DNA from: Candidatus Eremiobacter antarcticus
GTDB lineage: Bacteria > Vulcanimicrobiota > Vulcanimicrobiia > Eremiobacterales > Eremiobacteraceae
Length of the DNA stretch: 43,700 nucleotides
Reading direction: 5' to 3'
NCBI GenBank assembly: GCA_003244105.1
Contig: QHBK01000011.1
Span: 12,571-56,270 of the forward strand
Both the position numbers and the translations under genes were made by a program. Positions within the stretch are counted from its first letter, which is position 1. The number at the start of each line of letters is the position of its first letter. The notes below the pieces were generated by a model. The model was not told the DNA's origin and did not search any database. It was given only the letters and a program-made list of their open reading frames with translations. Of the stretch, positions 23,724 through 42,716 are shown one piece after another.

Positions 23724-23761
23724 GTGTTCAATCCATCGGCAGCAATGGGCGCTTTTTCTGT

Positions 23762-25976: not shown

Positions 25977-27251
25977 TTATGCCAGTACCGGAGGCTCTGT
26001 TGCTCGACGCCAAGCGATGCAAGCATTTGCCACCATAGTCAGCCAACCGCAGGCACCGAACGATGCCGCTACCCGAACCGTCAAGGGCGAGGCCAGCAAC
26101 AAGCCCACAACCCCGAGCGCGACGGCGGCCTGAAACAGTCCCCAACAAAGCCAGCTCGCGTGCGGGGACAAGAGGGCGGCGGGGAGCGTTTCGTCGTCAT
26201 CCCCGCGTGCCATCGTCGCCATGAGCCGGACTCCGATGTGGTGGAGGTGACCATTGACCATCTGCCCCATCCATCCAACCAGGCCGACGAAGACGAACGC
26301 GCTACTCCACGGCTTGCCCGCGGATGCGCCGACTCCGAGCAAAGCCGCAATGATGAGCCACAGCGCTGCGGCAGCGAGGAATGCTTGAGGCGGCCGGTGC
26401 GGCTCGGGAGCGCGCATCACGACGGTCAGCAGATCGACCGCGTATAACGCGACACCGGCACAAGCGAGCGCTTCCCCGGCCCTCGTCGCAAAAAGCGAAT
26501 GCGCCCACATCCCGGCCGCTAGCACAATCGTCGCCACACTTACCAGCGCACCGGAGATGATGTGTCGCCGTCGATCAGCCGACTTGGCTCCCGCAATCGG
26601 GCCGAGGGTGCGCGCCGACACCCCCATGATCAGCAGCGTCAGCCAGCCGATTCCGGCGACCGTAGCGTGCACCGTGGGTGATGCGCCAAGCGCGCTTGCG
26701 CGGCCGAAACGTCCCAACGAACCTGCCATCGCAACGCCGATGAGCACCGCAACGCAGAGGAAGGCCAAGACGGCCAGCAGCGCACGGGCGATTGCGGCTT
26801 CGCTACCCGGCTCGCGCGCTACCGCAAGCAACGTCATCGCGGCCGCTGCCAAGTACGCGCCAAGGCCGATGGCTAAAGTACCCGCCCCCAATGCAAGCAC
26901 TCTGAAGTCGTTAGACGAAAAGCCGGCGACGAGCGCGAACGTTCCAACAGCGTATGCTCCTAAGCCGCTGCGGGCTAAGCTTTGGCCGCGCCTCCGCGCC
27001 TCCGTGAACTGCGGGATGACGAATAAAAGCACCGACAGTGCGACCATCGTGAGCCAACCGAGTGCGACCAAGTGTACCCAGGCGAGCGAACGCATCGACT
27101 GACCGGCGAGGGCACCGTCGTCTGTGGCCAACGCGTAGAGCATGGCCCACGCAGCACCGTGCGCCATTTGCGCGATGAGCAGAGTGCTCGGAGGAATCCA
27201 GGGACGCCCCTTTGTCTTCAAGCCGCTATCGAACGCCGGGCGCTGGAGCAC
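25977..27251 (-). CDS. Polytopic membrane protein, NnrS/haem-copper-like
   Basis: About 424 residues with roughly twelve membrane helices. Helices carry isolated His residues in a pattern like NnrS or haem-copper subunit I relatives: WVHLVALGWLTMVALSVLLF, TVHATVAGIGWLTLLIMG and QMVNGHLHHIGVRLM. NnrS-type proteins bind haem/copper and are linked to nitric oxide stress, but this assignment is only by resemblance. The frame is open to 27287. The GTG at 27251 is chosen to limit overlap with the upstream gene; a TTG at 27221 lies just after that gene's stop and is also possible. Confidence 0.75.
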   Translation of the reverse strand: MLQRPAFDSGLKTKGRPWIPPSTLLIAQMAHGAAWAMLYALATDDGALAGQSMRSLAWVHLVALGWLTMVALSVLLFVIPQFTEARRRGQSLARSGLGAYAVGTFALVAGFSSNDFRVLALGAGTLAIGLGAYLAAAAMTLLAVAREPGSEAAIARALLAVLAFLCVAVLIGVAMAGSLGRFGRASALGASPTVHATVAGIGWLTLLIMGVSARTLGPIAGAKSADRRRHIISGALVSVATIVLAAGMWAHSLFATRAGEALACAGVALYAVDLLTVVMRAPEPHRPPQAFLAAAALWLIIAALLGVGASAGKPWSSAFVFVGLVGWMGQMVNGHLHHIGVRLMATMARGDDDETLPAALLSPHASWLCWGLFQAAVALGVVGLLLASPLTVRVAASFGACGWLTMVANACIAWRRATEPPVLA

Positions 27252-27681
27252 GTGGCACGCGCACCCGCATCCAGACAATGTAGGCAAGAAACGTTACTGC
27301 AGCCACCTGCAACGCGCCGGAGGTGACCAGCAATGCGGCACTGAGCGCGTGGCGGCCGCCCAATTGATACCATGGCTCGGCCACTAGCCTCAGCGGTAAG
27401 CCGATATTTAGGCAAGCGTAGCATAACCACACCGTTCGAGTCGGATAGCGCCCTCTCGTTTGCGCAAAGCGCGTTTGATCGAGGGGGAACATCCACAGGG
27501 CAACTCCGACGACTACGTTGACGAGCCAGCCGACAAACCCCATGTGTCCGTGTTCGACCTCGAAGACCGGCGGAACGACGTGGCCTGTCGCTTCCATGGT
27601 CGTCATTATGCCACCGGCAAGAAATGTCAAAAAGAGATAAGCGATGCCCGTCTTAATGAAAGCGCGAGGTTCGATCGGCAT
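27226..27681 (-). CDS. Four-helix membrane protein, haem-copper-like
   Basis: 151 residues with four hydrophobic helices: GIAYLFLTFLAGGIM, HMGFVGWLVNVVVGVALWMF, a helix near residues 84-100, and LLVTSGALQVAAVTFLAYIV. The conserved-looking EVEHGHMGFVGW puts two His residues near the second helix, as in small relatives of the oxidase subunit I fold. It is the first gene of the minus-strand operon, facing ccoN across a 378-base gap, and overlaps the next gene. A role beside the oxidase or in nitrogen-oxide metabolism is inferred from position only. Confidence 0.75.
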   Translation of the reverse strand: MPIEPRAFIKTGIAYLFLTFLAGGIMTTMEATGHVVPPVFEVEHGHMGFVGWLVNVVVGVALWMFPLDQTRFAQTRGRYPTRTVWLCYACLNIGLPLRLVAEPWYQLGGRHALSAALLVTSGALQVAAVTFLAYIVWMRVRVPRAPAPGVR

Positions 27682-28059
27682 GTTTTTATTTCACCCGCCC
27701 ATGTGGTGCTGCAACGTCAACCGTACCCCAAGCATCTTTCGACTATTCGATCATTATGAGCATGATGACGCCGAGCGCGGGAGTCAAGCAGCTTGACAAC
27801 TGCGAGAGGGCGAAAGAAAATGGGTGACGCCGCACCAACCGTACTTTGTTCGCGCCCTATCTATTCCTTGCCCGATGAACGCGCGGTTCCGCGCCCGCAC
27901 GACGATAAAGCAACTACCGGCCCAGCGCCGGCGATAAGTTCGGTGTTAGGAGCAACGCATACGCTTCGGCCCGTAGGAGGATACGGCGGAGCTGCAAAAA
28001 AAAAGCCTTAAGAACCTCGCTTTCATAAAATCAGAACCAGTTCATCAAGGACCCTGACG
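27682..28059. other. Divergent control region between two respiratory operons
   Basis: 378 bases between the minus-strand membrane-protein operon and ccoN, with no convincing gene (a 72-codon plus-strand frame at 27793 ends in a poly-Lys run from an A9 tract and is rejected). It holds the palindrome at 27783-27797 and a second imperfect one, ATCAT/ATGAT, at 27750-27766, so both operons may answer to one regulator. Confidence 0.45.
27783..27797. promoter_or_regulatory. Perfect 15-base palindrome, candidate operator
   Basis: GTCAAGC-A-GCTTGAC is exactly symmetric with 7-base arms. It sits in the divergent gap between two respiratory operons. The half-site TTGAC/GTCAA resembles FNR/CRP-type half-sites, but the spacing is too short for the classic FNR box, so the binding protein is unknown. 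Confidence 0.4.
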
Positions 28060-29460
28060 ATGACCGTGACGTCGGCTCGACGATTGGAACAAAGCACGGC
28101 CGGCGACATAAAGCTGTTCAGCGCGTTTACCATTTCGGCGACGGTGTGGCTTTTGCTAGCGACCGCGGTTGGTCTGCTGCTGAGCTTCAAGTTCCCGTAT
28201 CCTGACTTCGCATCGAGCCCTTATCTTTCGTTCGGTCGGCTGCGGCCCATCCATACGAACGGAACGTTCTACGGGTTCGCGTCCGTGGCGCTGACGGGCG
28301 TTGCAATGTACGTCGCCGCACGCTCTTCGGGCATTTCGTTGTGGGGAAAAACATATGCATGGGGCGCGCTATGGTGCTACAACATTGCCGCGACCATGGG
28401 CACTATCACGCTCGATTTGGGCATCAACAATGGCGATCAGGAGTATCGCGAGTGGGTATGGTGGGTGGCTCTCTTCTTCGTCGGGGCTGTGATCCTCAGC
28501 GCGATCTCGATCATCGGGACTGTCGCCAACCGCACTGAGCGCGATATCTACATCTCGAACTGGTACATTATAGGCGCATACAGTTTCACAACCATTTTGG
28601 GCGTTACCGCAGCCATCCCGTTCTACCAGCGCGGGCTGGGCCAGGTTGCCGTCCAGGGCTTCTACATGCACAACGCGGTCGGCATGTGGTTCACGTTCTT
28701 GGCGCTGGGAACGACGTATTATGCTTTGCCGAAGCTGTTGAACCGTCCCATTTATTCTTACGCGCTCGGCATACTGGGTTTTTGGACCAATTTGATTTTC
28801 TACCCGATTATCGGAGCGCACCATTTCGAGTTTTCGCCTTTGCCGTGGTGGTTCCAGACGCTAGCAATCGTCTTCAGCGTCGGAATGCTCGTTCCGGTCT
28901 TCGCGGGAACCGGAAACTTCTTACTCACCATGCGGGGCGGATGGGAAAGGATCCGCCGTTCAGTTGCGTTGCCATTTATCTTCGTCGGGGTGCTGTACTA
29001 CTTTGTGGGCTCGTTTCAAGGAACCGTCGAGGCGCTGCGCAGCCTGCAGACGATCTGGCATCTGACCAGCTACACGGTCGGACATTCGCACGCTACGATG
29101 TACGGGTTCATCACCTTTATCGCATGGGGATGCATCTACGGACTCTTGCCCAAGGCGACCCGTAAGCAACCGAACTCCTTGGCGACGGGCCTTCACTTCT
29201 GGATGGCGTCGATCGGTGTGACGCTGTACGTTCTGGCGCTCTCGGTCGGCGGGACTTTGCAGGGCATCGATTGGGCCCAAGGTGACCCATTTATCGCCTC
29301 GGTCGAGTCGGCGGCTCCGTATTGGGTCGCCCGCGCGGTGGGCGGCACGATGATGTTCTGCGCGCACCTGCTTTTCGCGTACAACGTCTATCTGATGACG
29401 TTTGCCCGTTCGCGTGAATCCGAAGCAGCACCAATCGTCGCGGGCAAGGCCACCGCATGA
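28060..29460 (+). CDS. ccoN: cbb3-type cytochrome c oxidase subunit I
   Basis: 466-residue catalytic subunit of a C-family haem-copper oxidase. Helices and ligands are in order: RPIHTNGTFYGF (low-spin haem His), YMHNAVGMWFTF (CuB His), the active-site Tyr six residues before the CuB pair in FYPIIGAHHFEF, and TVGHSHATMYGF (high-spin haem). The Tyr is the one crosslinked to His in cbb3 oxidases; nitric oxide reductases have no equivalent, so oxygen is the likely acceptor. AAGGAC precedes the ATG. It is coupled to ccoO by ATGA. The first 20 residues are soluble. Confidence 0.93.
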   Translation: MTVTSARRLEQSTAGDIKLFSAFTISATVWLLLATAVGLLLSFKFPYPDFASSPYLSFGRLRPIHTNGTFYGFASVALTGVAMYVAARSSGISLWGKTYAWGALWCYNIAATMGTITLDLGINNGDQEYREWVWWVALFFVGAVILSAISIIGTVANRTERDIYISNWYIIGAYSFTTILGVTAAIPFYQRGLGQVAVQGFYMHNAVGMWFTFLALGTTYYALPKLLNRPIYSYALGILGFWTNLIFYPIIGAHHFEFSPLPWWFQTLAIVFSVGMLVPVFAGTGNFLLTMRGGWERIRRSVALPFIFVGVLYYFVGSFQGTVEALRSLQTIWHLTSYTVGHSHATMYGFITFIAWGCIYGLLPKATRKQPNSLATGLHFWMASIGVTLYVLALSVGGTLQGIDWAQGDPFIASVESAAPYWVARAVGGTMMFCAHLLFAYNVYLMTFARSRESEAAPIVAGKATA

Positions 29461-30041
29461 ACAGGGGGATGAATAACATCGTCGTGCTGGTCGCAGGCCC
29501 GTTCATCATCTATGCGATACTGGCGCTGTTTATGGGTGCGATCCCGGGGGCGGTACTCTCAAAGACATCCCCGGGACCCGGCGTGATGCCCTTCAGCCCA
29601 CAGGCTCAACGTGGCCGCGACGTCTATGTCTCCGAGGGCTGCTCGTACTGCCATACGCAGCAGGTGCGGCCGCTGAAGCAGGACCTGGTGTTCGGGCGGC
29701 CATCAACCGCCGGCGATTACGCATACTCAACACCGCAGCTCCTGGGCTCGGAACGCAATGGTCCGGACCTGAGCAATATAGGCTCCCGCCAGCCTAGCGA
29801 CGTGTGGCAGTACATCCATCTGTACGAACCTAGATCGCTTGTCTCCATGTCGATCATGCCGCCATATCGGTGGCTATTTCAACTGAAGGCGCATGCAGAC
29901 GTGAACGACATCGTCGTACCCGTACCGCCGGGGTACGCGCCAAAAGGTGCTGTCGTCGTCACGACTCAAGAAGCGCGTGAGTTGGTCGCATATTTGAAGT
30001 CGCTAAAGCAAGCGCCGCTGACATCCCGCGCCAAGCGATGA
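29457..30041 (+). CDS. ccoO: cbb3 oxidase monohaem cytochrome c subunit
   Basis: 194-residue membrane-anchored cytochrome c. An N-terminal helix (NNIVVLVAGPFIIYAILALF) is followed by the haem motif CSYCH (62-66) in a context, GCSYCHTQQVRPL, typical of CcoO, and a Met ligand in SMSIMPPYRWLF. It hands electrons to CcoN. Overlaps ccoN (ATGA) and the next small gene (ATGA). An internal ATG at 29469 preceded by AGGGGG could be the true start. Confidence 0.92.
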   Translation: MNRGMNNIVVLVAGPFIIYAILALFMGAIPGAVLSKTSPGPGVMPFSPQAQRGRDVYVSEGCSYCHTQQVRPLKQDLVFGRPSTAGDYAYSTPQLLGSERNGPDLSNIGSRQPSDVWQYIHLYEPRSLVSMSIMPPYRWLFQLKAHADVNDIVVPVPPGYAPKGAVVVTTQEARELVAYLKSLKQAPLTSRAKR

Positions 30042-30220
30042 ACGGAATGCAGCACATGGGTGCCGCTCCACCCGGCGGCGACCCGCTTGGATGGGTAATT
30101 GCCCTAGGCGGTACCATGGCCACCCTCTGGGTGATCGCACTGGCGGTCCGGTTGCTGATTACGCCTGGTGAAACCGCCCCCGATCATCCTAAACTGCTCA
30201 TCCTAAAGGATGATCGTTGA
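30038..30220 (+). CDS. Small single-helix oxidase subunit (CcoQ position)
   Basis: 60 residues, MNGMQHMGAAPPGGDPLGWV then one helix (IALGGTMATLWVIALAVRLL) and a short polar tail. It sits between ccoO and the terminal cytochrome c gene with overlaps at both ends, the position of ccoQ, which helps assemble or stabilise cbb3 oxidases. Sequence similarity to CcoQ itself is not evident, so the symbol is withheld. Confidence 0.75.
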   Translation: MNGMQHMGAAPPGGDPLGWVIALGGTMATLWVIALAVRLLITPGETAPDHPKLLILKDDR

Positions 30221-31080
30221 TGGACGACGGCGCCGGCACGCCCGGGCCAACCTCAATTGCGGTCTTCCTGGACGAGCAGGCAGAGCCGCTGTCCACGTAT
30301 CGTCCTCCGGCGACATTCCAACTCGACACGACGAAACTAGAAGACGGCGACCACGTGCTCCGGGTTCGCGCGACCGACGCGATGGGCAACGTCGGTCAGC
30401 GCCGCATCCCGTTCACGGTCAGCAATGGCCCCGGCATCACTGTCACCGGCATTCGGGCCGGCTCATCCGTTCACGGGATACTCGACATCAACCTGAACGC
30501 CTTCAGCGGCGAAGAGCCATTCGATCCGGAACGCGCCGAGTCGCACGCCCCGATACCGGTGTGGACGTGGGTGATGTGCGCTATGGTGGCGGCGTGGGCA
30601 CTCTGGTACGGCCTTGAGTTTTTCCAGACGCCTGCGGAGTTCGCGAACACTCCAACTTACGCGGCGAATCCGGCTCTTGCTGCGGCAGCGGAGCCCGCGT
30701 CAGGCTCGGTCGCCCTGCACGGGCCGACTTTCAGCGGCAAAGGGGCTGTCGCGGGATTCGACTACGAGGCATCCGGAACATCGGCGTATGCGGCGAACTG
30801 CATGTCGTGCCATGGCGCCGGAGGTGCGGGTGTGGCCGGCACGTTCCCTGCGCTTGTCGGTGATCCAGTCGTGACCGACAGTAATCCGCGGCAGCAGATC
30901 ATCACCCTGTTGAAAGGTCTGCAGGGAAAGGCCATCGCGGGCAAGAGCTTTGCGGCGGCGATGCCCTCTTTTTCGGAACTGTCGGATCAGGACATCGCGG
31001 CGATAGTCGATCACGAGCGGACTTCTTGGGGAAACCACGCGCCCATCATTACTCCAGGCGACGTCAAGCGAGTCCGCTGA
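30220..31080 (+). CDS. Cytochrome c with N-terminal Ig-like domain (CcoP position)
   Basis: 286 residues. Residues 1-100 look like a bacterial Ig-like or cadherin-type sandwich (FQLDTTKLEDGDHVLRVRAT, then DAMGNVGQRRIPFTV). A membrane helix follows (about 113-133, VWTWVMCAMVAAWALWYGLEF) and then a single cytochrome c domain with CMSCH (near 194-198) and a Met ligand in AAAMPSFSELSDQDIAAIV. Normal CcoP has two haems and no Ig domain. TTG at 30217 or ATG at 30220 (overlapping the previous stop) can serve as start; AAAGGA lies upstream. Confidence 0.85.
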   Translation: MDDGAGTPGPTSIAVFLDEQAEPLSTYRPPATFQLDTTKLEDGDHVLRVRATDAMGNVGQRRIPFTVSNGPGITVTGIRAGSSVHGILDINLNAFSGEEPFDPERAESHAPIPVWTWVMCAMVAAWALWYGLEFFQTPAEFANTPTYAANPALAAAAEPASGSVALHGPTFSGKGAVAGFDYEASGTSAYAANCMSCHGAGGAGVAGTFPALVGDPVVTDSNPRQQIITLLKGLQGKAIAGKSFAAAMPSFSELSDQDIAAIVDHERTSWGNHAPIITPGDVKRVR

Positions 31081-31195
31081 GTGTCATGCTCGCCCTCTAA
31101 CACCCCTCTTGTGTGGCGCTTTTGTGGGCATCATGTAAACGCGTCAATTATCTAGTAGAGGTTATGCGGCATGCAAAGATTGAGGTTGGATCACT

Positions 31196-32258
31196 TCACC
31201 GTTCCGTAGCCTTAATAGGGCTGGCGATGGCTTGGGCCGGTGGGCGCCTACGAGTCGCGCCATGTTGACGAAGCGTCTCGGTGCTTTCAGCGTGGCTGCG
31301 GTCTAAAAGCAAACGCAGTGCGACTTCGAACAAGGAGCTTTCGCTGACGCTCGCGCGTTTTGTTGGCCATCGACCGGTGAGCCGTTGAACGCCTCGATGA
31401 AGCCATTGCCGGTAGGCTTCCCCGGTCGTGAAAACTCCACCGTGATCTGATTGCAATACGCCCATTGATCGAACGGGATGGCGGTAAATTCTGCACCGTT
31501 GTCGCAGCGAATAGCCTGCGGTGCACCGCGATCCATGACCAGCGTCTGAGCACCTCGATGACGTCGTACGCCCGGAGGCCGCGCCCAACCTCGAGAGCCA
31601 AACTCTCGCGCGTGAATTCGTCGACCACCGTCAGCAGCCGAACGTTGCGCGCCGGTTGACCGGCTAGGCGATCGTGCATAAAGTCCATCGTCCAGACCTA
31701 ATTGGGTCGCAGCGCGAGACCATACGCGATTGGCGCTGCGTCGCCGCTTGGGTGCTTTGGCCCGTAAACTCAAGCCTTACTGGCGATAGAGCCGCCGCAC
31801 GCGCTTAACGTTAACAACCCAGCCCTCGCGCCGCAACAGCACGTGGATACGGCTGTAACCGTAGCGTATGCGTGCGCCGGCGATATCCTTGATGCGCGCT
31901 CGCAGCGTCTTGTTCAGCGCCACCAGCTTGGAGCGATAGTACATCGACGAGCGGCAAAAGCGCATCGCGAAGCATGCACGCCGCTGGCTGACTCGGTAGC
32001 GCGCTTTCAAGTCGCCGACCAGGACGCGCCGCCTGGCCGGCTTTACCACTTTTTTGAGGGCACATCCTGAAGCATGGTCTTGTCCAAGGTAAAATCCGCG
32101 ACCAGCCTCTTGAGCCGCACGTTCTCTACGTCCTGGAGGAGGACGACGAGCGCGACGGTCCGGAGACCTCGACATGTTGCGCTGCGTCGGAAGACGCAGC
32201 CACTTCGAGCGGGTGCTGCTAACATGTTGGAAGCGCTCCGTGGCGCCCCTTTCGGCAC
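31196..32258 (-). pseudogene. IS3-family transposase remnant
   Basis: Broken OrfA/OrfB pair of an IS3-family insertion sequence (IS407-like by word pattern). In transcription order the remains are ENVRLKRLVADFTLDKTMLQ (end of OrfA, about 32046-32126), the HTH part RYGYSRIHVLLRREGW (frame ending at a stop near 31777), GLSLRAKAPKRR, then after an in-frame stop DFMHDRLA and LTVVDEFTRESLALEVGRGL (31688 down), and in another frame CDNGAEFTA and GNGFIEAFNG. At least two stops and two frame changes separate the DDE residues, so no active transposase can be made. Terminal inverted repeats were not located. Confidence 0.85.
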
Positions 32259-32353
32259 AGTTAACGAGTCGACAAGCTACTGCGAGTCCTGTGGTTCCGT
32301 CAGCAATGCCGACTGTCGACAAGCTGCCCTGCGGGCACGCTATTCCCAGTTCA

Positions 32354-33948
32354 TCATCCGCTGACGTGACGCTCGCGCGCGACCCCGTGATGCCTGACGT
32401 CCGTGAAGCGCCAGAGGGGACCGCCCGGCACTCCCTCATGCTCAATGGCGCAGGCTTGAATCCAAGATCCTACTTTAGACTGCATTTCGGTCGCGACGCT
32501 TCGGTCAACGTGTACGACTGCAAGCTGCCGGCCGATATCAAACACCACCACCCAGTCTCGATTTGCGTTTGCCCTGCAGCAACGACTCTGCCTTCATGCC
32601 GGCGACCCACGCCTGCGTTACTCTCGGTGAGAGGCTTGTCGTGCGCTGCAGAAAGCTGCTCAAAGTCCAAAGCGTCGATTTGCGATTGTTCGAGCTCTGC
32701 GGAATGTGCGGAAGCTGGTCTTATCTGTTTCGTATCCGGGGGGCCGCCTCGTTCTTGGCTCGCGGTTCGAATGCCCATCTCTGCAGCGAGCTTATGTGCC
32801 TTCGCTTTGAACTCATCGGTGCCGCTGATCGAAAGCCCACCGATCCACTTTTCTCGGCATAGCATCAGCCCGGTACGAATAGCGTCGTCGTTGATGTCGT
32901 TGAATACGACCCGGCAACCCTCATCGCGGAAGACGGTCGTGTGGTTCAGGGCGTAGTTGACGCCGCGTTTGTCTATCGTCCAACGTATGCTGGCCAACAT
33001 CGCTGTCCGTGAGTCGCCGACTCCCACAACGGTGCCTATCTGTAGTGGAGGGGCGTCTAAGGACCGATTCTGCTCGCGATTTCGACGTCGGCGGAGGGCC
33101 GCGACGGCCGCTTTCTCTCCCTCCATCGCTCGCTGTGCCAGCCATTCGGGCCACCGTCCTGGGCGAGAATGGTCGTAGCGTGCTTTGAGTTCTTTGCGCT
33201 CGCGCTGTGTGTCAAGTCTTAGTTGCTCGCGTTCGGAAGCGGCGATGAAGGCCTGAACGGAGTACAGAAGCTTCTTACTCGTCTTGGCCTGGGAGCTTTT
33301 TATGCGCTCGCGCGCCGCCCGGTTCTCTTGCCGTAGGGACTCAAAGCGCGCCTTTTCGCTAGCTCTTTGTTGCTGGAAGGCACTTTCGCCTTTGCGTCCT
33401 TCCGCACGTTCCCATTCCTGCTTCGCCGCGGTATATCGCCCGTACAACGAGGCGCGCTCAGGCTGCCGTTCGTCGGCACGCGTTGCGCCCGCTTTCAGGT
33501 ACCGCGCGTAGGACTTCGCTTTATGCTCCGAAATCACCGTGTGCTCGCCCGTACGTTCACGCTTCGGCTGTTGCCCGACCGGTTCGAACGATCCAAGGCG
33601 CTCTTCCACTTTTCCCAGTGAGGCAAAGCGACCGATGTGGCTAGCTTTGGCATGGAGTTTGTTTGGGTCGTCGCGGTCGACCACCACAGCACCGCTGCCT
33701 TTAGTGCGATATTCCAGGCTGAAGCGGGCCAGCAATTCGTGGACATGCTGCCACTTCGTGTCCGCTCGTTCCAAGACTCGTTTCAGTTCCTGGGCTGGCT
33801 CATGACCCACCCACTCCTGAAAGCTCTCACGGCCGCTCCAGGCGGCGAAATCTCGGCTTTCATTAGCCGTTGCCGGCCACATGAACGAACCAGAGCCTCG
33901 ATGATCGCGCCCCACCAATTGCTTCAAGGGCGTCGCCGTGACGATCAC
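32354..33948 (-). pseudogene. Relaxase pseudogene, N-terminus lost
   Basis: Homologue of the intact relaxase at 37291, but it begins at the equivalent of residue ~185. Shared words are RDFAAWSGRESFQEW vs RDYEAWNGRKSFQRW and KLHAKASHIGRF vs KLHAKASHFGRF. The whole HUH nuclease part is missing, so it cannot nick DNA. The middle is a long charged coiled coil, then an LPD7-like domain (FRDEGCRVVFNDINDDAIRTGL). Near 32553 an extra G shifts the frame; the homologous C-terminus (VVFDIGRQLAVVHVD and WIQACAIEHEG) continues to 32354 in another frame. The upstream edge fuses into the excisionase remnant. Confidence 0.88.
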
Positions 33949-33963
33949 TCTCCGCTCGGCTAG
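33847..33963 (+). pseudogene. Excisionase (AlpA-like) 3' remnant
   Basis: Thirty-eight codons and a stop: EISAFISRCRPHERTRAS, then APHQ, then LQGRRRDDHSPLG. They match the last part of the AlpA-like protein at 36642-36935 (EISAFIGRCRPQTGVTVS, then GRRRDDHSRLG). The helix-turn-helix half is absent, and the upstream DNA is antisense relaxase sequence, so a deletion joined the two genes. It lies before the integrase, as the intact copy does in the neighbouring element. Confidence 0.75.
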
Positions 33964-34136
33964 TTGGCTTGATCAGGTTATGGCACGACCGCAACAAGGC
34001 GCCAAATAGCAAAGAGACCATGAGCTGCTGTGCTTCGTCCCCGTTCTGATAACTCAATGCTGACGAGTTCATGGTTTCGGGAGTCGTGGCATGAATCGCG
34101 ACAGTTCCCTCCAGGTTCGCGAAGAAAGGATCGCCG

Positions 34137-35288
34137 ATGCGAACGAGGCGAGGCCAGGGAAACATCCGACGGCAGGTTCGCACCCGCGAGGACGGATCCA
34201 AACACATTTTCTGGGAGGCCCGCCCATACGTTACCGACCGTACCGGGATGCGCAAACGGTTATGCATATACGGAGCTTCCTGCGCAGAAGTCCAAGACAA
34301 GCTTGTGAAACTGCGAAGTCATCAATTCGACGATTTCAGGGTAGCGCGCTTATGGCTGTCTGACTACCTCGACACATGGCTTGCGACGATCAAGAGCAAC
34401 CGCCAGCACCGTACGTACGAATTGTACGAAGCTGCAGTGCGTAATCACGTCAAACCAAACGTTGGGACCGTTAGACTTAGCGAACTCAGACGTGACCACA
34501 TACGCGACCTGTTTGAGCGCAAGATGAGCTCCGTCGGTTCTCGCATGAAACAGGTGGTCTACCGCATACTGAGCTCGGCGCTGACCGCAGCGGTTGAAGA
34601 TGACATCATCATGAAGAACCCATGTCTTAGGAAAGACAAACCGAGGCATACACCTGGGGAGCTGACATTCCTGAATAAAGAACAAGCGCTCAGCCTCGTG
34701 GAGGCCGCGAAAGGGGAAGAACATTATGCGCTGATCCTGCTGGCTTTGACGAGCGGAATGAGGCAAGGCGAATTATTCGGGCTTCTATGGTCCGCTGTGC
34801 ATTTGGATGGCGGCTACCTGATGGTGCGGGCGCAACTCACAAAGGACCAAGACGGCAATCCGGCCCTCACCGCGCCCAAAGCATCGCGTGCGCGGAAGGT
34901 TGATCTTCCAGCTATCACGATCGCAGCGCTGCGCTCGCATCAAAAACTGCAAGAACCGAAAGGTCCATGGGTATTCGCCGATATCAACGGCGAGCCACTG
35001 AGCGAGGACCGGTTCGTGCGAAACCACTTCCACCCGCTTCTGAAGAAGGCAGCCCTGCCGCACATTCGCTTCCATGACTTGCGCCACGCGGCCGCGACGC
35101 TGCTCCTGGCTGCGGGGGAAAATGTCAAAGTGGTGGCTGAAAGGCTTGGTCACTCTTCGGCGAAGATGACCCTCGACGTTTACGCCCACGCTCTGCCGAC
35201 TCTGCAAAAGCCGGCCACGGCGAAAATCGATGAGATATTCTCTAATAGGAGACTAGATGGGAGACTAAAAGATAAGCAAACCCTCTAA
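34137..35288 (+). CDS. Tyrosine integrase of the left element
   Basis: 383-residue phage-type tyrosine recombinase. An N-terminal arm-binding region (MRTRRGQGNIRRQVRTREDG) leads to a SAM-like core-binding domain (about 73-150). The catalytic domain has Arg in SGMRQGELFGL, His-X-X-Arg in HDLRHAAATLLL, His in LGHSSAKMTLDVY and the nucleophile Tyr in DVYAHALP. All five catalytic residues are present, so it should be active. GAAGAAAGGA lies 6 bases before the ATG. The stop lies 18 bases before the tRNA-Pro gene, and the last codons contain the right arm site. Similar to, but clearly diverged from, the integrase at 35473. Confidence 0.93.
   Translation: MRTRRGQGNIRRQVRTREDGSKHIFWEARPYVTDRTGMRKRLCIYGASCAEVQDKLVKLRSHQFDDFRVARLWLSDYLDTWLATIKSNRQHRTYELYEAAVRNHVKPNVGTVRLSELRRDHIRDLFERKMSSVGSRMKQVVYRILSSALTAAVEDDIIMKNPCLRKDKPRHTPGELTFLNKEQALSLVEAAKGEEHYALILLALTSGMRQGELFGLLWSAVHLDGGYLMVRAQLTKDQDGNPALTAPKASRARKVDLPAITIAALRSHQKLQEPKGPWVFADINGEPLSEDRFVRNHFHPLLKKAALPHIRFHDLRHAAATLLLAAGENVKVVAERLGHSSAKMTLDVYAHALPTLQKPATAKIDEIFSNRRLDGRLKDKQTL
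35241..35269 (+). repeat. Probable integrase arm site, right
   Basis: TCTAATAGGAGACTA followed by GATGGGAGACTAAA, inside the 3' end of the integrase gene and 38 bases before the tRNA. It matches the copy at 23697-23723 and has the same double GGAGACTA unit. Confidence 0.6.
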
Positions 35289-35306
35289 ACTCAGTATCCA
35301 TGGCGT

Positions 35307-35384
35307 CGGGCCGTAGCGAAGCCTGGTTAACGCGCCTGTCTGGGGGGCAGGAGATCGCTGGTTCAAATCCAGTCGGCCCGACCA
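35307..35384 (+). tRNA. tRNA-Pro (anticodon GGG)
   Basis: Complete cloverleaf of 78 bases including an encoded CCA. The acceptor stem CGGGCCG pairs perfectly with CGGCCCG, discriminator A, then CCA. The anticodon stem CCTGT/GCAGG holds loop CTGGGGG with anticodon GGG at 35342-35344. The T arm is CTGG-TTCAAAT-CCAG. C1 paired with G72 is typical of bacterial tRNA-Pro. Nucleotides 1-43 are the right-hand copy of the element's direct repeat, so the 5' half and its promoter may be element-derived while the 3' half is the old chromosomal one. Confidence 0.96.
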
Positions 35385-35388
35385 TGCT

Positions 35389-35424
35389 AAAAGCCCCGTC
35401 CTATACAGGTTCGCGGGGCTTTTT
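35389..35424 (+). terminator. Rho-independent terminator after tRNA-Pro
   Basis: Perfect 10-base stem AAAAGCCCCG / CGGGGCTTTT with a 15-base loop, followed by a further T, directly after the tRNA. It is nearly symmetric in function and may also stop transcription coming from the minus-strand integrase. Confidence 0.85.
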
Positions 35425-35455
35425 AGTTTCAACAATCCACCGCCGTTTTGGGCCG

Positions 35456-35475
35456 AGTAACCTATAAGTAACCTA
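35456..35475. repeat. Tandem 9-base repeat at integrase end
   Basis: AGTAACCTA twice, 11 bases apart, overlapping the integrase stop codon on the minus strand. The layout (two short tandem units beside the integrase 3' end) copies that of the left element's arm site, with a different sequence. A partial match, TTAGGTTAGC, occurs near the other end at about 42455-42464. Confidence 0.4.
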
Positions 35476-36645
35476 ATTCGAAGGCCTCGCCTTGAGAATA
35501 GCGTCTAGTTTGTCCGCCGCCTCACGTTGCATGGTGGGAAGCACATGGCTGTAGGTGCTTAGGGTGATCGCCACGTTTGCGTGGCCTAGCATAGACTGGA
35601 CAATCTTCGGGTGAACATTGCATTTCAGCATTAAAGTGGCGGCTGTGTGGCGTAGGTCGTGAAAGCGGATGATGGGCAAGCCGGCGCGCTCGAGGATAGG
35701 GCGGAACGAACGGTTCACTACGTTTCCCTTTACGAGTGGGTTCCCGTCGATGCCGCAAAAGACAAAGGGGCTCGTACAAAGTCCTTCGGCCAGCATGCGG
35801 GCGCGATGTTCCTTTAGCTCGTGAACGGCGACGTCTGGCAGGTCGACACGTCGTCGGCCCGCTTCCGTCTTGGGCTCGGTCAGGTGGAATGGCTTGCCGT
35901 TCTGACGCGCCTTACCGTAGCTGCGAGTCAGCGTATGGCGTACAGATAAGGATCTCTCCGCCAAGTGTACGTCTTCCCACTGAAGACCTAGAAGCTCGCC
36001 TTGGCGCATTCCCGTCGCGAGCGCGAGAACGTACAGTGCATGTAGTCGGTCGGATTTAGCCGCGTCGAGAAATTGTCGAGCCTGTTCAAGGTCGAGCACT
36101 TTCATGGGCTTGTGAGACGTTCTGGGCTTATCTACGGCCTCACATGCGTTCGTGGTAACGAGGTGCCATCGCAGCGCCTGCTTGAGCGCTTTATGGAGAA
36201 CTCCCCGAGCTTTTTGACGCATAGTGCCGGATGCGCCCTTGCGTTCCATCTCCGACAGCATTCGCTCGACGTGTGGCGGCCGCAACTGTTGCAAGCGTAG
36301 TGCGCCGATCCGATCCTTGATGTGGACGCGAACTATCATTTCGTAGAGCGTGTAGGTGGAAATCCGGTAAGAGGGGCGGATACTGTCCTCTAGCCAGCGA
36401 GTTAAGTACTGTCCGACAGTTTGTTTGTCGATTGGAACAACAGCGCCCGCCGCGGCCTTGCCTTGTAGCTCTAATAGTTTTGCGATGACAGCCGCTTTGG
36501 ATTGCCCGTAGACGGCACGCTGATTCGGGCCAACGCCGCAGCCTAATGAAAGTCTGGCTCGCCAAATCTTGTAGGTCGAACCGTCTCGCCGCCGACGTGT
36601 GATTTGGTCGATTGAGCCCTCATTGCGTCCACGTCGTGACCTCAC
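35473..36645 (-). CDS. Tyrosine integrase of the right element
   Basis: 390-residue tyrosine recombinase. An N-terminal basic arm-binding segment (MRSRRGRNEGSIDQITRRRR) precedes a core-binding domain (about 75-160). Catalytic residues are complete: Arg in TGMRQGELLGLQW, HDLRH, LGHANVAITLSTYSHV with His and Tyr. It overlaps the excisionase stop by ATGA, so the two are co-translated. It points toward tRNA-Pro, as the left integrase does from the other side. Confidence 0.94.
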   Translation of the reverse strand: MRSRRGRNEGSIDQITRRRRDGSTYKIWRARLSLGCGVGPNQRAVYGQSKAAVIAKLLELQGKAAAGAVVPIDKQTVGQYLTRWLEDSIRPSYRISTYTLYEMIVRVHIKDRIGALRLQQLRPPHVERMLSEMERKGASGTMRQKARGVLHKALKQALRWHLVTTNACEAVDKPRTSHKPMKVLDLEQARQFLDAAKSDRLHALYVLALATGMRQGELLGLQWEDVHLAERSLSVRHTLTRSYGKARQNGKPFHLTEPKTEAGRRRVDLPDVAVHELKEHRARMLAEGLCTSPFVFCGIDGNPLVKGNVVNRSFRPILERAGLPIIRFHDLRHTAATLMLKCNVHPKIVQSMLGHANVAITLSTYSHVLPTMQREAADKLDAILKARPSN

Positions 36646-36935
36646 CCGCTCAGCTCACCTAGCCGCGAGTGATCGTCTCGCCGGCGCCCGTGGAACGACT
36701 GCCGTGGTGCCATCGAGACCGTAACCCCTGTTTGAGGGCGGCAACGGCCGATGAACGCGGAAATCTCTGCAGGCTCGAAACGTGTTGATCGGCCGATCTT
36801 TAAATAGGCAATCTCTCGTTTTCGCATCAGTTCGTACAGGCTGGTCGTAGAGATACGAAGCAGGCGACATACTTCTCCGGCGGTTAACAATTGAGATCTT
36901 TGGGGCTCTTGCATCGCCGCTGAGGTTTTTACCAT
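36642..36935 (-). CDS. AlpA-like excisionase/helix-turn-helix protein
   Basis: 97-residue protein of the excisionase-type DNA-binding family (HTH_17). LLTAGEVCRLLRISTTSLYE and MRKREIAYLKIGRSTRF form the winged helix (about 16-58). The C-terminal tail GRRRDDHSRLG is the part shared with the remnant at 33847. It lies between a small upstream ORF and the integrase with overlaps on both sides. Such proteins set the direction of integrase or control its expression. Confidence 0.88.
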   Translation of the reverse strand: MVKTSAAMQEPQRSQLLTAGEVCRLLRISTTSLYELMRKREIAYLKIGRSTRFEPAEISAFIGRCRPQTGVTVSMAPRQSFHGRRRDDHSRLGELSG

Positions 36936-37282
36936 CGCGTTGGATCCTCAAAGCCAGTCGGAGATCTCGCTAACATAGCGTTCTGCCAGCAGGCGACTGT
37001 CGCCGGTTGTGGTCTACTTGGCTCTTCATCAGCCGGCTCACGCTCCGCGACGAATTCTTTTCCCAGCATTGCGTCAATGTGTCTATCCTCTTTGGCATAA
37101 AGGATTGACGGTTCATCGACCACGCCACATATAACTGACAACGCAAATGCAGATACACGTAGGGGCAGGGTAGGCGTTTGTATATACAGCTCGGCTCCGC
37201 CGGCTGATCCAAACGCAGGATGTGTTCCCGGCTGCTCGGCGACTTCGTCTTCTCGCAGCTTGGTTGCGCCGTCCGATCTCAT
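36929..37282 (-). CDS. Small unknown protein upstream of excisionase
   Basis: 117-residue ORF whose end overlaps the excisionase start (ATGGTAA), divergent from the relaxase with only 8 bases between their starts. The sequence (ALSVICGVVDEPSILYAKED, then HIDAMLGKEFVAEREPADEE) is acidic and without recognised family. Codon use looks like the neighbours. Its position suggests a relaxosome accessory or regulator, but this is a guess from context. Confidence 0.5.
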   Translation of the reverse strand: MRSDGATKLREDEVAEQPGTHPAFGSAGGAELYIQTPTLPLRVSAFALSVICGVVDEPSILYAKEDRHIDAMLGKEFVAEREPADEEPSRPQPATVACWQNAMLARSPTGFEDPTRW

Positions 37283-37290
37283 GATTTCTA

Positions 37291-39210
37291 ATGCTGGCTA
37301 AAGTTCCGTCGAGGCGGCGGGATGGTAAAAGTAGCTTCGCAGCTTTGACGAAGTACATAAGCAAAGACGCCGCTGCCACTGCGCATTCCCCTGAGGTCTG
37401 GTCCGTCGAGAGCGCCGCGGATGAAATGAACCAAGTCGCATCGTTTTCGCGCGCAAGAGATCCAGTGTATCACTTCGTTCTGAGCTGGAGAGAGGATGAG
37501 AGTCCGACCGATAGCCAGGCATTCGAGGCGGTAAATGCAACGCTGACAGCCTTGAAGATGCACGAGAATCAATGGGTAGCTGGCCTTCATCGCAATACGA
37601 ACAACGTGCATGCGCACGTTGCGGTCAATCGAGTCAACCCAGACACTTATAAGGCGGTTTCCGTGTTTCGGGATTGGTTTGTGTTGGATCGGACCTGTCG
37701 TGAAATCGAACTAAAGCAGGGTTGGCTGCACGATAAAGGGTCGCACCGGATCGAAGTTGCCGACGGAGGCCAGCCGCAGATCGTCCGTAACGGGCGGGAA
37801 CGTTCGGACGATTCGCCCTCCTCTCCGACGACGAAAGCCAGAGATTACGAAGCCTGGAACGGCCGAAAAAGCTTTCAAAGGTGGATTGCAGACGAGCCGG
37901 CGCAAAGCCTCAGAAGGCTTTTGGAGCAACCGCACCCGACATGGGAAGCTGTGCACAAGACGCTCGCAGCCTTCGAGCTCGAGTATAGGCCCAAGGGGAG
38001 CGGCGCCGTGATCGTGGATCTGACCGAACCGGACAAACTGCATGCCAAGGCAAGTCATTTCGGCCGCTTCGGATCACGAGGAAACCTGGAGACGCGCCTG
38101 GGGCCTTATGAAGGGCCCACAGGGGCGCGCACTCTCGGTAGTCCCAAATCGTATCGCGTAACGATTGGCAATGGCGCCCACCGTCACGATGTGCAGGAAA
38201 TACGACTAAGGGATCGCTTCGAGCTTGCCCACGCACAGCACCAAATACAACAAAAAGCGGTCACACCGGCGTCGGTGGGGCAGCGCGGCGGCAAGGGCGC
38301 AGGCCACGCCGAGTTGCCGCCGCTCGACCAAACGGTGCGCGGCTCCTCAGGACGTGTTGACCAATCGGCGTCACCCGCAGTTGTGGCAATCAAACCCACC
38401 GCAAGCCAACAACATCTGGACCAGCAGCTGCAAGAACGTCGCCGCCCTCGAGCGCAAACGGCGGGGCACGGTCCTGGCTCTTGGAGATCATGGCTAGTGC
38501 GGCAGGCGCACGCCGGTGACCATGATGCATCGGAAGACCTGCTGCAGCTTCGTCGCGGTTTCCCGAGGCGTCGATTGCAAGAACAGACCCTACTCGCGAC
38601 GGAGCTTACGGTCGGCAGACTACCGAACGACAACGTGATTCTTAAGAGTCTAGCCGCTATTGGGAATGTTTCGGGCGTCAACTTTCTTGAAAAAGGTCGC
38701 GCGATTTTTTGTGACCAGGGTTCCCGAGTCGTGTTCCATAGCCTTGAAGACAATCATATAAAAGCTGGGCTAGCGCTTGCGGGAGACAGGTGGGACGGTG
38801 GCATTTATGTGTTAGGGACTGATAGATTTCGGCGCAGCGTGACGGCCTTGGCAGGGGAGGTGGGAATCCGCGTGCGGGGCGCGGCGCTGTGGCAAGAGCA
38901 CCGACTGGGTCTAGGAGAGCTATCTAAGTGCTCTGGAAAGGCTATCGTCGAGAGCAACTTGATCGCTGGTCGACAGCATACGGGGAGGGTTGTCACTGCC
39001 TCCATCGAGTCAGTGGACAAGGGAACCGTGATCCTCGACGTCGGGCGTGAGCTGCTCATTCTCCGCACTAACGCACCAAGCGCTTTTGACCTGAAGCATA
39101 AGACCGGTCAATGGGTCCAAGCCTATGTTAGCGCTGAGCAACGAGATAATGTCTCGTGGAGATTTAGCGATCTCGAACGGAAGGGCCCGGAACGATTTCG
39201 AGGACTTTGA
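37291..39210 (+). CDS. MOBP-like relaxase with LPD7-like C-terminus
   Basis: 639-residue conjugative relaxase. The N-terminal nuclease has an early Tyr candidate in ALTKYISKD (Tyr22), the strand YHFVLSWRED, and the HUH metal site LHRNTNNVHAHVAVNRV with His100, His107 and His109. After about residue 185 comes a scaffold shared with the left pseudogene (EYRPKGSGAVIVD, KLHAKASHFGRF), then a Gln/Ala-rich linker and an LPD7-like domain (FLEKGRAIFCDQGSRVVFHS, then AGDRWDGGIYVLGTDRFRRS). It would nick at an oriT and lead strand transfer. No coupling protein or type IV secretion gene is near, so the element would be mobilisable rather than self-transmissible. Confidence 0.88.
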   Translation: MLAKVPSRRRDGKSSFAALTKYISKDAAATAHSPEVWSVESAADEMNQVASFSRARDPVYHFVLSWREDESPTDSQAFEAVNATLTALKMHENQWVAGLHRNTNNVHAHVAVNRVNPDTYKAVSVFRDWFVLDRTCREIELKQGWLHDKGSHRIEVADGGQPQIVRNGRERSDDSPSSPTTKARDYEAWNGRKSFQRWIADEPAQSLRRLLEQPHPTWEAVHKTLAAFELEYRPKGSGAVIVDLTEPDKLHAKASHFGRFGSRGNLETRLGPYEGPTGARTLGSPKSYRVTIGNGAHRHDVQEIRLRDRFELAHAQHQIQQKAVTPASVGQRGGKGAGHAELPPLDQTVRGSSGRVDQSASPAVVAIKPTASQQHLDQQLQERRRPRAQTAGHGPGSWRSWLVRQAHAGDHDASEDLLQLRRGFPRRRLQEQTLLATELTVGRLPNDNVILKSLAAIGNVSGVNFLEKGRAIFCDQGSRVVFHSLEDNHIKAGLALAGDRWDGGIYVLGTDRFRRSVTALAGEVGIRVRGAALWQEHRLGLGELSKCSGKAIVESNLIAGRQHTGRVVTASIESVDKGTVILDVGRELLILRTNAPSAFDLKHKTGQWVQAYVSAEQRDNVSWRFSDLERKGPERFRGL

Positions 39211-39388: not shown

Positions 39389-40780
39389 TTGAGACCACCT
39401 ACTGTACCGACTCCGATTTCCTCACCGATTTCGAAGTTGGTTCAGCGCTTCGCCGAATACGAAACGGCCTATAGATCGAGCCATTACAACGAGGCGCAAG
39501 TGCGGCGTGAATTCATTGATCCCATGTTTGAGGCTCTGGGTTGGGATATGAGTAATGCCGGCGACGCCTCCGAAATCGATAAGGACGTGGTTCACGAGCA
39601 CACGTTTCATCTCGGGTCCTCGATGCTGGCACCCGACTACCTCTTTCGCGCAGCTGGTCAACCGCAATTTTACGTTGAAGCAAAAAAGCCGGCAGTCAAT
39701 ATTATCAGAAGCGCTAGCCCTGCCTTTCAGGTTCGGCGATATGCATGGTCTGAGAATCTTCCGCTAAGCATTCTGACTGACTTTAAGGAGTTTGCAGTCT
39801 ACGACTGTCGCATCGCTCCTAACCGCGAGGACCCTGCAAGCAAGGCGCGGTTGAGGCTGTGGACTTTTCAACAATATGAGAGGTCATGGAACGAAATTGC
39901 CGCTCTGTTTTCAAAGGACGCGGTGTATTCTGGGTCGATCGACGAATTCATTAAGTCTGTGCGACCTCTGCGCGGTTCGCTGCCAGTCGACGCCGCTTTT
40001 TTACTCTTGATTGAACGTTGGCGCGAGGACCTTGCCACAAACATCGCACACCAAAATCAGGGCCTCGATTCAGAAAGCCTAAACTATCTTGTCCAAATGA
40101 CTATCGATCGGATCGTGTTTCTCCGCATAGCTGAAGATAGGGGTCTCGAGCCCTACGGACAGTTAAGTGAGGCATCAAAGGGAGACGTTTATCCAGGCTT
40201 ATGTACTTTGTTCGAAATGGCTGACGAGAAATATAATTCAGGGTTGTTTCATTTCAAGAAGGAAGCTAACAGACCAGCTCAAGACGACATCTCTTTGGGA
40301 ATATCGGTCGACAGCGGCCTTCTTAGGAAAATCATCCGAGGTCTATACTATCCAGAAAGTCCGTACGAATTCTCAAGAATCCCTATTGAGATTCTGGGTC
40401 AAGTATATGAGCAATTTTTAGGCAAGACAATAACGTTGGGCCAGTCCGGCCAGATTTCGATCAACGACAAACCCGAAGTTCGGAGGGCGGGCGGCGTCTA
40501 TTACACGCCAACATACATCGTCGACTATATCGTAAGCCGCACGCTAGAACCTCTTGTCCGCCGTAAGACACCCAAGGCTGCGAGTATGCTTCGCGTCGTG
40601 GATCCCGCATGCGGTTCGGGAACGTTCTTAATTCGGGCCTACCAATTCTTGCTTGACTGGCACCTTCGAAAATATTTGAAGGCGCCCAACGTTTACCGAA
40701 ACAGGTCCGGGAATGTCATGGATTTTAACAACGGCGGAGCGCAAGAGGATCCTTCTAAACAACATCTTCGGGGTGGATAA
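39389..40780 (+). CDS. Type IIG-like restriction-modification enzyme, N-terminal part (frame-split)
   Basis: 463-residue first part of a single-chain restriction/methyltransferase. The nuclease domain shows a PD-(D/E)XK site with Asp83 in APDYLF and EAK at 97-99 (FYVEAKKP). A helical linker leads to the adenine methyltransferase with YYTPTYIVDYIV and motif I DPACGSGTF (405-413). The frame then slips at a TTTT run (40723-40726) and ends in 18 unrelated codons. Removing one T restores LTTAERKRILLNNIFG in frame with the second part. TTG start at 39389, 9 bases after AAGGAGG. GC content is clearly lower than the chromosome. Confidence 0.87.
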   Translation: MRPPTVPTPISSPISKLVQRFAEYETAYRSSHYNEAQVRREFIDPMFEALGWDMSNAGDASEIDKDVVHEHTFHLGSSMLAPDYLFRAAGQPQFYVEAKKPAVNIIRSASPAFQVRRYAWSENLPLSILTDFKEFAVYDCRIAPNREDPASKARLRLWTFQQYERSWNEIAALFSKDAVYSGSIDEFIKSVRPLRGSLPVDAAFLLLIERWREDLATNIAHQNQGLDSESLNYLVQMTIDRIVFLRIAEDRGLEPYGQLSEASKGDVYPGLCTLFEMADEKYNSGLFHFKKEANRPAQDDISLGISVDSGLLRKIIRGLYYPESPYEFSRIPIEILGQVYEQFLGKTITLGQSGQISINDKPEVRRAGGVYYTPTYIVDYIVSRTLEPLVRRKTPKAASMLRVVDPACGSGTFLIRAYQFLLDWHLRKYLKAPNVYRNRSGNVMDFNNGGAQEDPSKQHLRGG

Positions 40781-42260
40781 GGATCCACAAGCCGTCGAGA
40801 CTACCAAATTGGCGTTGCTTCTAAAAATCTTAGAAGGCGAATCGGCAGACACACTTGAGCGTCAGCTAGACCTGCTAAAGGTTCGTGCGTTACCAGATCT
40901 TCAGAATAATATTCAGTGTGGTAATTCACTAATCGAACCGGATTATTTCGATGGTCCAATGTCCAATGTCGGAGATGCCGAGATCAGGCAAGTAAATGCG
41001 TTTAACTGGTTTGACGCGTTTTTTCGTCGTTTGCGATCCACTGGGTTCGATGTCGTCATTGGCAACCCACCGTACATATTTACGCGCGAGTTGATATCGG
41101 GGCCTGAACGAGCTTATTACGCGAGAAAATTCACCGCATCATTCGATAAACACAATACCTTTATGCTCTTTATTGAATTGATGAGTCGCCTGCTCGTCAA
41201 GAATGGGAAGGGAAGCTACATAGTACCAAATTCTTGGCTGACTATGGACAGCGCTAAGTTGCTGCGCAGTCACCTCGTTCCCCGTCTTGAATTCATTACC
41301 GACTTGAACTACGAAGTATTCAACAAAGTGGGCATGGAGCCGTGCATTTTTGGAATAGGGGGAAAGAACTCAACAAGCGAGGTTCAAGCCGTGCGCGTCT
41401 CATCAAAGCGAGAACTAGCGTCAGCTAGGCCAATCTCGCTCGACCGACGGCGGTTCGACAATCGTACAAATCGGATCGTGTTCTCCTCGGCCTCCAAGGC
41501 TTACGATTTACTTGAGCGTGTGCTGAAACGCTCTAGTCGCGTTGGAAGCGAATTTGACGTCCGGTCAGGGCTGCAAGCGTATGAGCGTGGAAAAGGAACG
41601 CCCCCCCAACGCGCCGACCAAGTGGAGAAACATATCTTCGACCGAAGCGAAAAAGACGATGATAGCTCCATTCGATACCTTGAGGGAGCGGACGTTAAAC
41701 GCTATGCAATCACCTGGTCGGGAATGTGGCTCCAATATGGACCCTGGCTGGCACAGCCCCGATCACTTCAGATATTTACGCGGCCCCGGGTCCTGATCCG
41801 TGAAATAACATCGCATTTCCCGTATTGCATCGAGGCAATGTTAGCCGAAGCTCTCTTTCTTAACAATAAGAGCATCCTCAACGTGTTGGACTTTCAGGAT
41901 AACGTTGTGAATCTAAAAGTCTTACTTGCCACTATTAATAGTCGATTTACGGCATTATTTTACAAAGAGCGTGCGGTAAAAAGCGCGCGAAAGCTGTTCC
42001 CGAAAATCCTAGCTCGGAATCTGGCTGAGTTCCCGTTTCCCGGATCGATCAAACCGGGCCTGCGACAACAGATCGTTCACTTAGTGGAGGCCATGATTTC
42101 GTATCAATTACAGCTGGCTAATCACGACTCATCAAAACGCCCTATTACGCTATTGAGGCGCATCGATGCCGTCGAACGCCAAATCAATTTGTCAGTTTAC
42201 AAGATATTCGATTTGACAGATGACGAAGTCGGTTATATTGAACGCATCGACAATGATTAG
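40713..42260 (+). CDS. Type IIG-like restriction-modification enzyme, C-terminal part (frame-split)
   Basis: Second part of the same enzyme in the +1 frame. It begins within the methyltransferase (LTTAERKRILLNNIFGVDKD), carries catalytic motif IV FDVVIGNPPYI (NPPY near 118-121), and continues into a target-recognition region (LEGADVKRYAITWSGMWLQY, then LFLNNKSILNV, and KLFPKILARNLAEFPFPGSI). The Met at 40713 is only the first ATG in this frame and has no clear ribosome site, so a separate protein is unlikely without re-initiation. The intact enzyme would have about 956 residues, typical of this class (Eco57I/BREX PglX-like architectures). Confidence 0.87.
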   Translation: MSWILTTAERKRILLNNIFGVDKDPQAVETTKLALLLKILEGESADTLERQLDLLKVRALPDLQNNIQCGNSLIEPDYFDGPMSNVGDAEIRQVNAFNWFDAFFRRLRSTGFDVVIGNPPYIFTRELISGPERAYYARKFTASFDKHNTFMLFIELMSRLLVKNGKGSYIVPNSWLTMDSAKLLRSHLVPRLEFITDLNYEVFNKVGMEPCIFGIGGKNSTSEVQAVRVSSKRELASARPISLDRRRFDNRTNRIVFSSASKAYDLLERVLKRSSRVGSEFDVRSGLQAYERGKGTPPQRADQVEKHIFDRSEKDDDSSIRYLEGADVKRYAITWSGMWLQYGPWLAQPRSLQIFTRPRVLIREITSHFPYCIEAMLAEALFLNNKSILNVLDFQDNVVNLKVLLATINSRFTALFYKERAVKSARKLFPKILARNLAEFPFPGSIKPGLRQQIVHLVEAMISYQLQLANHDSSKRPITLLRRIDAVERQINLSVYKIFDLTDDEVGYIERIDND

Positions 42261-42506: not shown

Positions 42507-42554
42507 TGCTCGGCATGCAAGAGGTCAACGGTTCGACCCCGTTATCCTCCACCA
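42507..42554 (+). pseudogene. tRNA-Ala(GGC) 3'-half fragment, probable att site
   Basis: TGC-TCGGCAT-GCA gives three pairs of anticodon stem around anticodon GGC. The variable region AGAGGTC, an intact T arm (AACGG-TTCGACC-CCGTT) and acceptor 3' strand ATCCTCC-A-CCA follow. The matching 5' half (GGAGGAT and D arm) is not upstream, so this cannot form a tRNA. Like the tRNA-Pro repeat, the break falls at the anticodon arm, which marks it as the right junction of an element. Confidence 0.75.
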
Positions 42555-42716
42555 CTTTGAAACCCGCGTCGCGTATGCGACACCTCGTTCTTTGCTAATA
42601 GGGATCCGCCTACGCTGGTGAGGCAGTACTGCAATTAGTACTGCAGTTTAGGCGCGCGGCAGTCCAGCCGCCGAGATCTGCGGCGTCTGGCGCCTAGTAC
42701 TTCAACACGATTTGGA
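42555..42716. other. Spacer right of the att fragment
   Basis: No gene seen. GTCGC-GTAT-GCGAC near 42571 and a 9-base direct repeat AGTACTGCA (42625 and 42637) are the only structures, both short enough to be chance. Confidence 0.35.

Follow-up and report, generated by a model that had tools for sequence, protein, structure and literature searches.

Two related integrative elements of opposite polarity at one tRNA-Pro(GGG) gene of Candidatus Eremiobacter antarcticus

We analyzed a 43,700-nucleotide stretch of the genome of Candidatus Eremiobacter antarcticus (assembly GCA_003244105.1, contig QHBK01000011.1, forward-strand positions 12,571 to 56,270; hereafter the window, to which all coordinates without a contig prefix refer), in which two integrative elements, A on the left and B on the right, meet at an intact tRNA-Pro(GGG) gene (35307-35384, plus strand; called by ARAGORN and by Rfam at 60.6 bits). 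Very probably, these two elements, which are of the same family and probably mobilizable, entered the anticodon loop of this one tRNA gene separately and with opposite polarity. In what follows, C7, C10 to C13, and C19 are contigs of the same genome, C11 being the one that carries the window, and G002 to G006 and G013 are genomes of relatives.

Both halves of the tRNA gene are duplicated at the outer ends of the array. The left end of A carries a displaced 5' half (23532-23574, plus strand) that is identical at 43 of 43 nucleotides to 35307-35349 and is followed by sequence which diverges from the tRNA immediately. The displaced 3' half, consisting of the last 45 nucleotides of the tRNA (45/45 identical), lies on another contig at C13:759-803, where the 3' half and the terminator region together recur with 92% identity over 101 nucleotides (C13:759-859). 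With a 5' half displaced to the left and a 3' half on C13, A therefore restores the 5' half, and B would restore the 3' half. The identity block of A ends at 35349 and that of B begins at 35340, leaving an overlap of only 10 bp around the anticodon loop (CTGGGGGGCA, 35340-35349, plus strand); judging by the ends of the blocks, both crossovers most likely fall within this sole stretch common to all three sites, which is the probable region of strand exchange. Element A extends from ~23574 to ~35345 (about 11.8 kb), its body, flanked by the displaced 5' half on the left and the intact tRNA on the right (23575-35306, plus strand), measuring about 11.7 kb, and element B extends from ~35345 to what is presumably its far end at C13:~765, supplying the tRNA 3' half. 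On these alignments, the working tRNA-Pro is a 5' half from A joined to a 3' half from B. In keeping with a tRNA island, the displaced fragment of A stands on the expected side, here upstream of the intact gene and on the same strand, with an integrase gene (34137-35288) between them, and the fragment is a 5' half, the front of the tRNA being supplied by the element. In the case of B, the 3' half, the repeats, and the flanking synteny sit on C13, and the join from the window to C13 is unassembled. No further displaced half was found outward in the window, in the first 12.6 kb of C11, or in the first 15 kb of C13. ARAGORN calls a second tRNA-Pro at 23531-23611, which is an annotation trap; because Rfam finds one tRNA only, we take this call to be the displaced 5' half running on into unrelated sequence. 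Relatives show TTATCGCG where the two 5' copies have TTAACGCG, and most relatives read CGAATCC where the two 3' copies read CAAATCC. These variants, common to the tRNA and its displaced halves, suggest that the elements circulate inside this lineage.

Each element also has its own pair of repeats. The ends of A carry tandem TAGGAGACTA-type repeats with a spacing of about 10-12 bp, the distal copy at 23701-23721 (TAGGAGACTAATGGGAGACCA) and the proximal one at 35246-35266 (TAGGAGACTAGATGGGAGACT) sharing the same motif pair, while the ends of B carry a different pair, AGTAACCTA(ATT), at 35456-35478 (AGTAACCTATAAGTAACCTAATT) and at C13:622-645 (window copies given on the plus strand). In G013, a B-like element is likewise bounded by the B-type motif on both sides. 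When read on the integrase strand, the motif of A is TAGGAGACT and that of B is TAGGTTACT, similar words at the same position beyond the integrase. Their position, tandem spacing, and occurrence at both ends suggest that these repeats may serve as integrase arm sites.

A first-pass annotation of the window had described two related elements in mirror image around this tRNA, and the mirrored gene order and strands were borne out by the open reading frames (ORFs), Pfam matches, and tRNA calls. Both tyrosine integrases point at the tRNA: integrase A (IntA; 383 aa; 34137-35288, plus strand; PF00589, PF14659), with an intact reading frame, at its 5' end, and integrase B (IntB; 390 aa; 35473-36645, minus strand; PF00589, PF14659) at its 3' end. 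In pairwise alignments, the integrases are 39% identical over 388 aa (E=5e-78), the relaxases 34% identical over 442 aa (E=8e-64), and the C-termini of the excisionases (Xis) 66% identical (25/38 residues, E=1e-13). The relaxase and excisionase word pairs quoted in the annotation are both present, and the alignments are far above background (E from 1e-13 to 5e-78), which supports its claim that two members of one family stand head to head at one tRNA; the relationships are those of a genuine family, not of duplicate copies of a single element. Of the two origins it had offered, independent captures fit the 34-39% identity, unlike a duplication or inversion of a single element. Its other option, that one element made the site of the other, applies in the limited sense that each integration would regenerate an intact tRNA and hence a new attachment site. 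Its interval, 33847-39210, covers the inner part of the array; A begins at ~23574 and the far end of B is on another contig.

The arrangement can be explained by the position of the tRNA-identical block in each element. The attachment site carried by B (attP) would hold the tRNA 3' half and terminator beside its integrase, which would place B downstream of the tRNA. The tRNA-Pro would now be transcribed from the A side. Since each insertion would rebuild an intact tRNA, and hence a fresh chromosomal attachment site (attB), further elements of either polarity could keep arriving.

Comparison with relatives is indicative of one ancestral locus. G013 and G002 carry homologues of the window from 11.9 to 17.5 kb, including the tyrosyl-tRNA synthetase gene (tyrS), upstream of tRNA-Pro(GGG), the homology in G013 starting from 9.9 kb, and G006 carries homologues of C13 from 6 to 14 kb downstream of tRNA-Pro(GGG). 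On gene order, with tyrS-side synteny upstream and C13-side synteny downstream in relatives, the displaced halves therefore mark the left and right sides of a single ancestral locus. Beside the tRNA in G013, G002, and G006, there was no match to window 17.5-23.4 kb or to the initial ~6 kb of C13. Single B-type insertions stand at the same tRNA in G005, where the integrase is intact, and in G013, where the element has its own 3' half and an integrase that shares 88.5% identity with IntB over 235 aa. In G002, a displaced 3' half follows tRNA-Pro at a distance of about 0.6 kb. Traces of A polarity are an integrase C-terminus just upstream of tRNA-Pro in G003 (E=6.9e-7) and a less clear one, read by eye, in G004. 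Older remnants lie beyond both displaced halves. On the left, 23410-23520 (plus strand) holds what appears to be a decayed integrase C-terminus with arm-like sites, which we take for the remnant of an older 5'-restoring element, A'. It is collinear with the integrase remnant of G003, the local alignment (z=8.6) outscoring every one of 200 shuffles; a protein search with this stretch of the window alone was non-significant, and the case rests on the collinearity with G003. On the right, a decayed integrase C-terminus with about 90% DNA identity to IntB lies downstream of the 3' half on C13. Integrase remnants outside both displaced halves therefore indicate that the locus had probably already received an older element of each polarity before A and B, whose own order of arrival is unreadable because either order yields an identical product.

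We then considered polarity within the integrase family, assigning it by hand and including cases in which the end of the integrase overlaps the tRNA. Of 32 related integrases in the phylum, 16 point at the 3' end of a complete tRNA, three at a 5' end, and two adjoin a 3' half only, the remainder having no assignable tRNA. The three 5'-facing integrases are IntA, a G003 integrase at tRNA-Asn, and an integrase at tRNA-Lys on C19 of the same genome; IntA groups with the G003 integrase (support 98/96) in a clade nested among 3'-facing integrases, and the fewest polarity changes on the integrase tree, with C19 included, is two. Only for IntA is the 5'-facing position proved by a displaced half, none having been found for the other two. 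The C19 integrase (C19:280460-281008) points at tRNA-Lys(CTT) from 117 bp upstream of its 5' end, and no displaced half that would make it a further 5'-restoring case was found before the end of the contig. In G003, the IntA-like integrase stands on the 5' side of tRNA-Asn, and 18.5 kb downstream of this tRNA there is a displaced 3' half at which another integrase points (G003:C9 66694-66739 and 85243-85318); perhaps this locus is a second two-sided array. Among genome contigs, viral contigs, and plasmids, the relatives of IntA were only distant, with about 33% identity or less.

Several observations weigh against separate entry with opposite polarity. The far end of B is on a different contig, and a tRNA-Ala 3' half within the supposed B (42512-42555) misfits a simple element. 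The displaced 5' halves of the G003 and C19 cases were not found. Among the available genomes, there is no empty, A-only, or B-only site of the same species. A search for a sigma-70-like promoter upstream of either 5' half gave no match, a pattern which may not be that of this host.

The first two of these observations concern the right side. Element B has, next to its integrase, an Xis (97 aa, HTH_17 by Pfam; 36642-36935, minus strand) and a complete relaxase of the TraI/MobA(P) type (639 aa; 37291-39210, plus strand; PF03432, and NF041893 at 318.9 bits against an NCBIfam cut-off of 250), the combination expected of an integrative mobilizable element; no transfer genes or conjugation apparatus were seen in the assembled 8.3 kb of B, which is incomplete. 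Further right is a restriction-modification type gene (39389-42260, plus strand; ORFs and Pfam) spread over two overlapping frames (HSDR_N/N6 methylase, then Eco57I/TaqI_C), and therefore frameshifted or broken. Its membership in B is uncertain because a 3' half of tRNA-Ala(GGC) (42512-42555, plus strand; 44 nucleotides identical to C12:75791-75834) lies to its right, marking either another insertion or a rearrangement. The ORF right of this half has no relative within the family, and the window ends, with contig C11, inside B. It could well be, at somewhat under an even chance, that the right part of B is mixed, DNA of a second island at tRNA-Ala(GGC) having been exchanged in, such that the sequence left of 42512 would belong in part to B and in part to the Ala-island. 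Besides the tRNA-Ala 3' half, this is favored by the intact tRNA-Ala(GGC) at the end of C12 (C12:75758-75833) and by a 23-bp insertion sequence (IS) end common to the end of C12 and the start of C13 and found nowhere else in the assembly. However, between two loci that point the same way, a simple reciprocal exchange would divide a circular chromosome in two, and contigs may be missing, with a second tRNA-Ala 3' half on C10 (C10:2172-2208). The last 23 bp of C11 are found again at the beginning of C19, and 22 bp of them on C7. An exchange between the distal part of B and a tRNA-Ala element may have taken place, or the assembly may lack contigs; either would alter the account of B only, and the junction of A, tRNA, and B is untouched by it. 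A second hot spot is tRNA-Ala(GGC): this genome has an intact copy along with two displaced 3' halves, and such halves also occur in G003, G004, G005, and G013.

A composite element with a whole tRNA-Pro between two integrases could also have arrived in a single event, in the manner of tRNA-dependent lysogeny phages, for which a complete rescue tRNA is known (PMC10865867); the outer halves would then be the chromosomal halves of one tRNA, with the intact tRNA inside. We hold this to be quite improbable, as the two ends of A carry matching repeats and so do those of B, the ends that adjoin the central tRNA among them, and as B-type elements stand alone at tRNA-Pro in other genera and an A-type remnant stands without B in G003. 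That one element was joined to itself around the tRNA by misassembly or inverted duplication is hardly credible: the assembly is fragmented and its contigs end at repeated IS ends, but the proteins of the two sides are only 34-39% identical, no long DNA repeat links them, and the arm-like motifs differ, and we reject it on these grounds. Separate insertion of A and B fits these data, and an assembly artefact at their junction is unlikely, given that A and B are each backed by a separate displaced tRNA half, by arm-like repeats of their own, and by relatives with single insertions elsewhere.

Element A carries respiratory cargo and has lost parts of its mobility module. From left to right lie a molybdopterin/cytochrome b oxidoreductase (24104-25663, minus strand; Pfam and NCBIfam, its SoxC/MsrP match falling below the NCBIfam cut-off), two unassigned ORFs (25977-27681, minus strand), and cbb3-type oxidase subunits I and II with a cytochrome c protein (28060-31080, plus strand; Pfam and NCBIfam, the cbb3 matches being below the NCBIfam cut-offs). 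In G002, a distant relative of the oxidoreductase in this cargo (24104-31080) is found a few kb from an integrase. A broken IS3-type transposase follows (31196-32445, minus strand; ORF fragments with an HTH_21 match), with 79% DNA identity to C13:23-298. Relaxase A is a C-terminal part (32470-33948, minus strand; TraI_middle and LPD7 by Pfam) in which the nuclease domain PF03432 is absent, so that it lacks what a functional relaxase of an integrative mobilizable element requires. Xis A is a C-terminal remnant (33847-33963, plus strand; the 25 identical residues out of 38 correspond to Xis B 57-93). The relaxase A ORF begins within sequence antisense to the Xis A C-terminus and aligns only from residue 182 of relaxase B. 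A single deletion fusing relaxase codon ~182 to Xis codon ~57 would account for both features and would have removed the nuclease domain and most of the helix-turn-helix (HTH) of Xis. With these lost, A is probably fixed unless helped in trans.

Islands at tRNA genes nearly always restore the 3' half, the tRNA staying on its own promoter. Of the 3919 islands in Islander, 3760 have a 3' fragment and 159 a 5' fragment, and 125 tandems were recorded (PMC4383910). The present array resembles these islands and tandem arrays in its tyrosine integrases, the intact tRNA with displaced fragments, the crossover in the anticodon loop, and accretion at one tRNA, but differs in that 5'- and 3'-restoring relatives flank one tRNA. 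Restoration of the 5' half, which according to a review of archaeal integrases (PMC8371274, citing Williams 2002) marks pTN3-like integrases and is seldom met in bacteria, is shared by A, which supplies the region upstream of the tRNA like those elements and the rare bacterial cases cited there. Unlike pTN3-like elements, A is bacterial, its closest integrase relatives mostly face 3' ends, and its integrase gene is not split by integration. With its integrase, Xis, and TraI/MobA(P) relaxase, B resembles integrative mobilizable elements with MOBP-type relaxases, whereas in A the nuclease domain of the relaxase is missing and so is most of the Xis HTH. Integration at a tRNA and a tRNA supply tied to the element recall tRNA-dependent lysogeny (PMC10865867); in those phages, however, the host tRNA is not reconstituted and a separate whole tRNA is carried, whereas here each element restores one half, and the attachment junctions of both lie in the central tRNA itself. 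The component parts are of known kinds, and the two-sided array with an apparent polarity switch in one family is the unusual point. In the literature, of which our coverage is partial, we found no earlier description of a two-sided array, which counts as weak evidence of novelty.

The opposite polarity of two relatives at one tRNA means that both halves of a conserved gene would now come from mobile DNA, and it indicates that inspecting only one side of a tRNA can overlook half of an array. The apparent switch offers a concrete system for testing candidate determinants of polarity, namely the location of the tRNA-identical block in attP and the orientation of the core to the integrase. More tentatively, the choice of restored half may be evolutionarily switchable within one integrase family, the near-palindromic anticodon arm being usable from either side. 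Elements might then accumulate outward on both sides until the whole gene, from promoter through coding sequence to terminator, consists of mobile DNA, and recombination between the outermost sites might release a circle of A, tRNA, and B with a complete tRNA gene.

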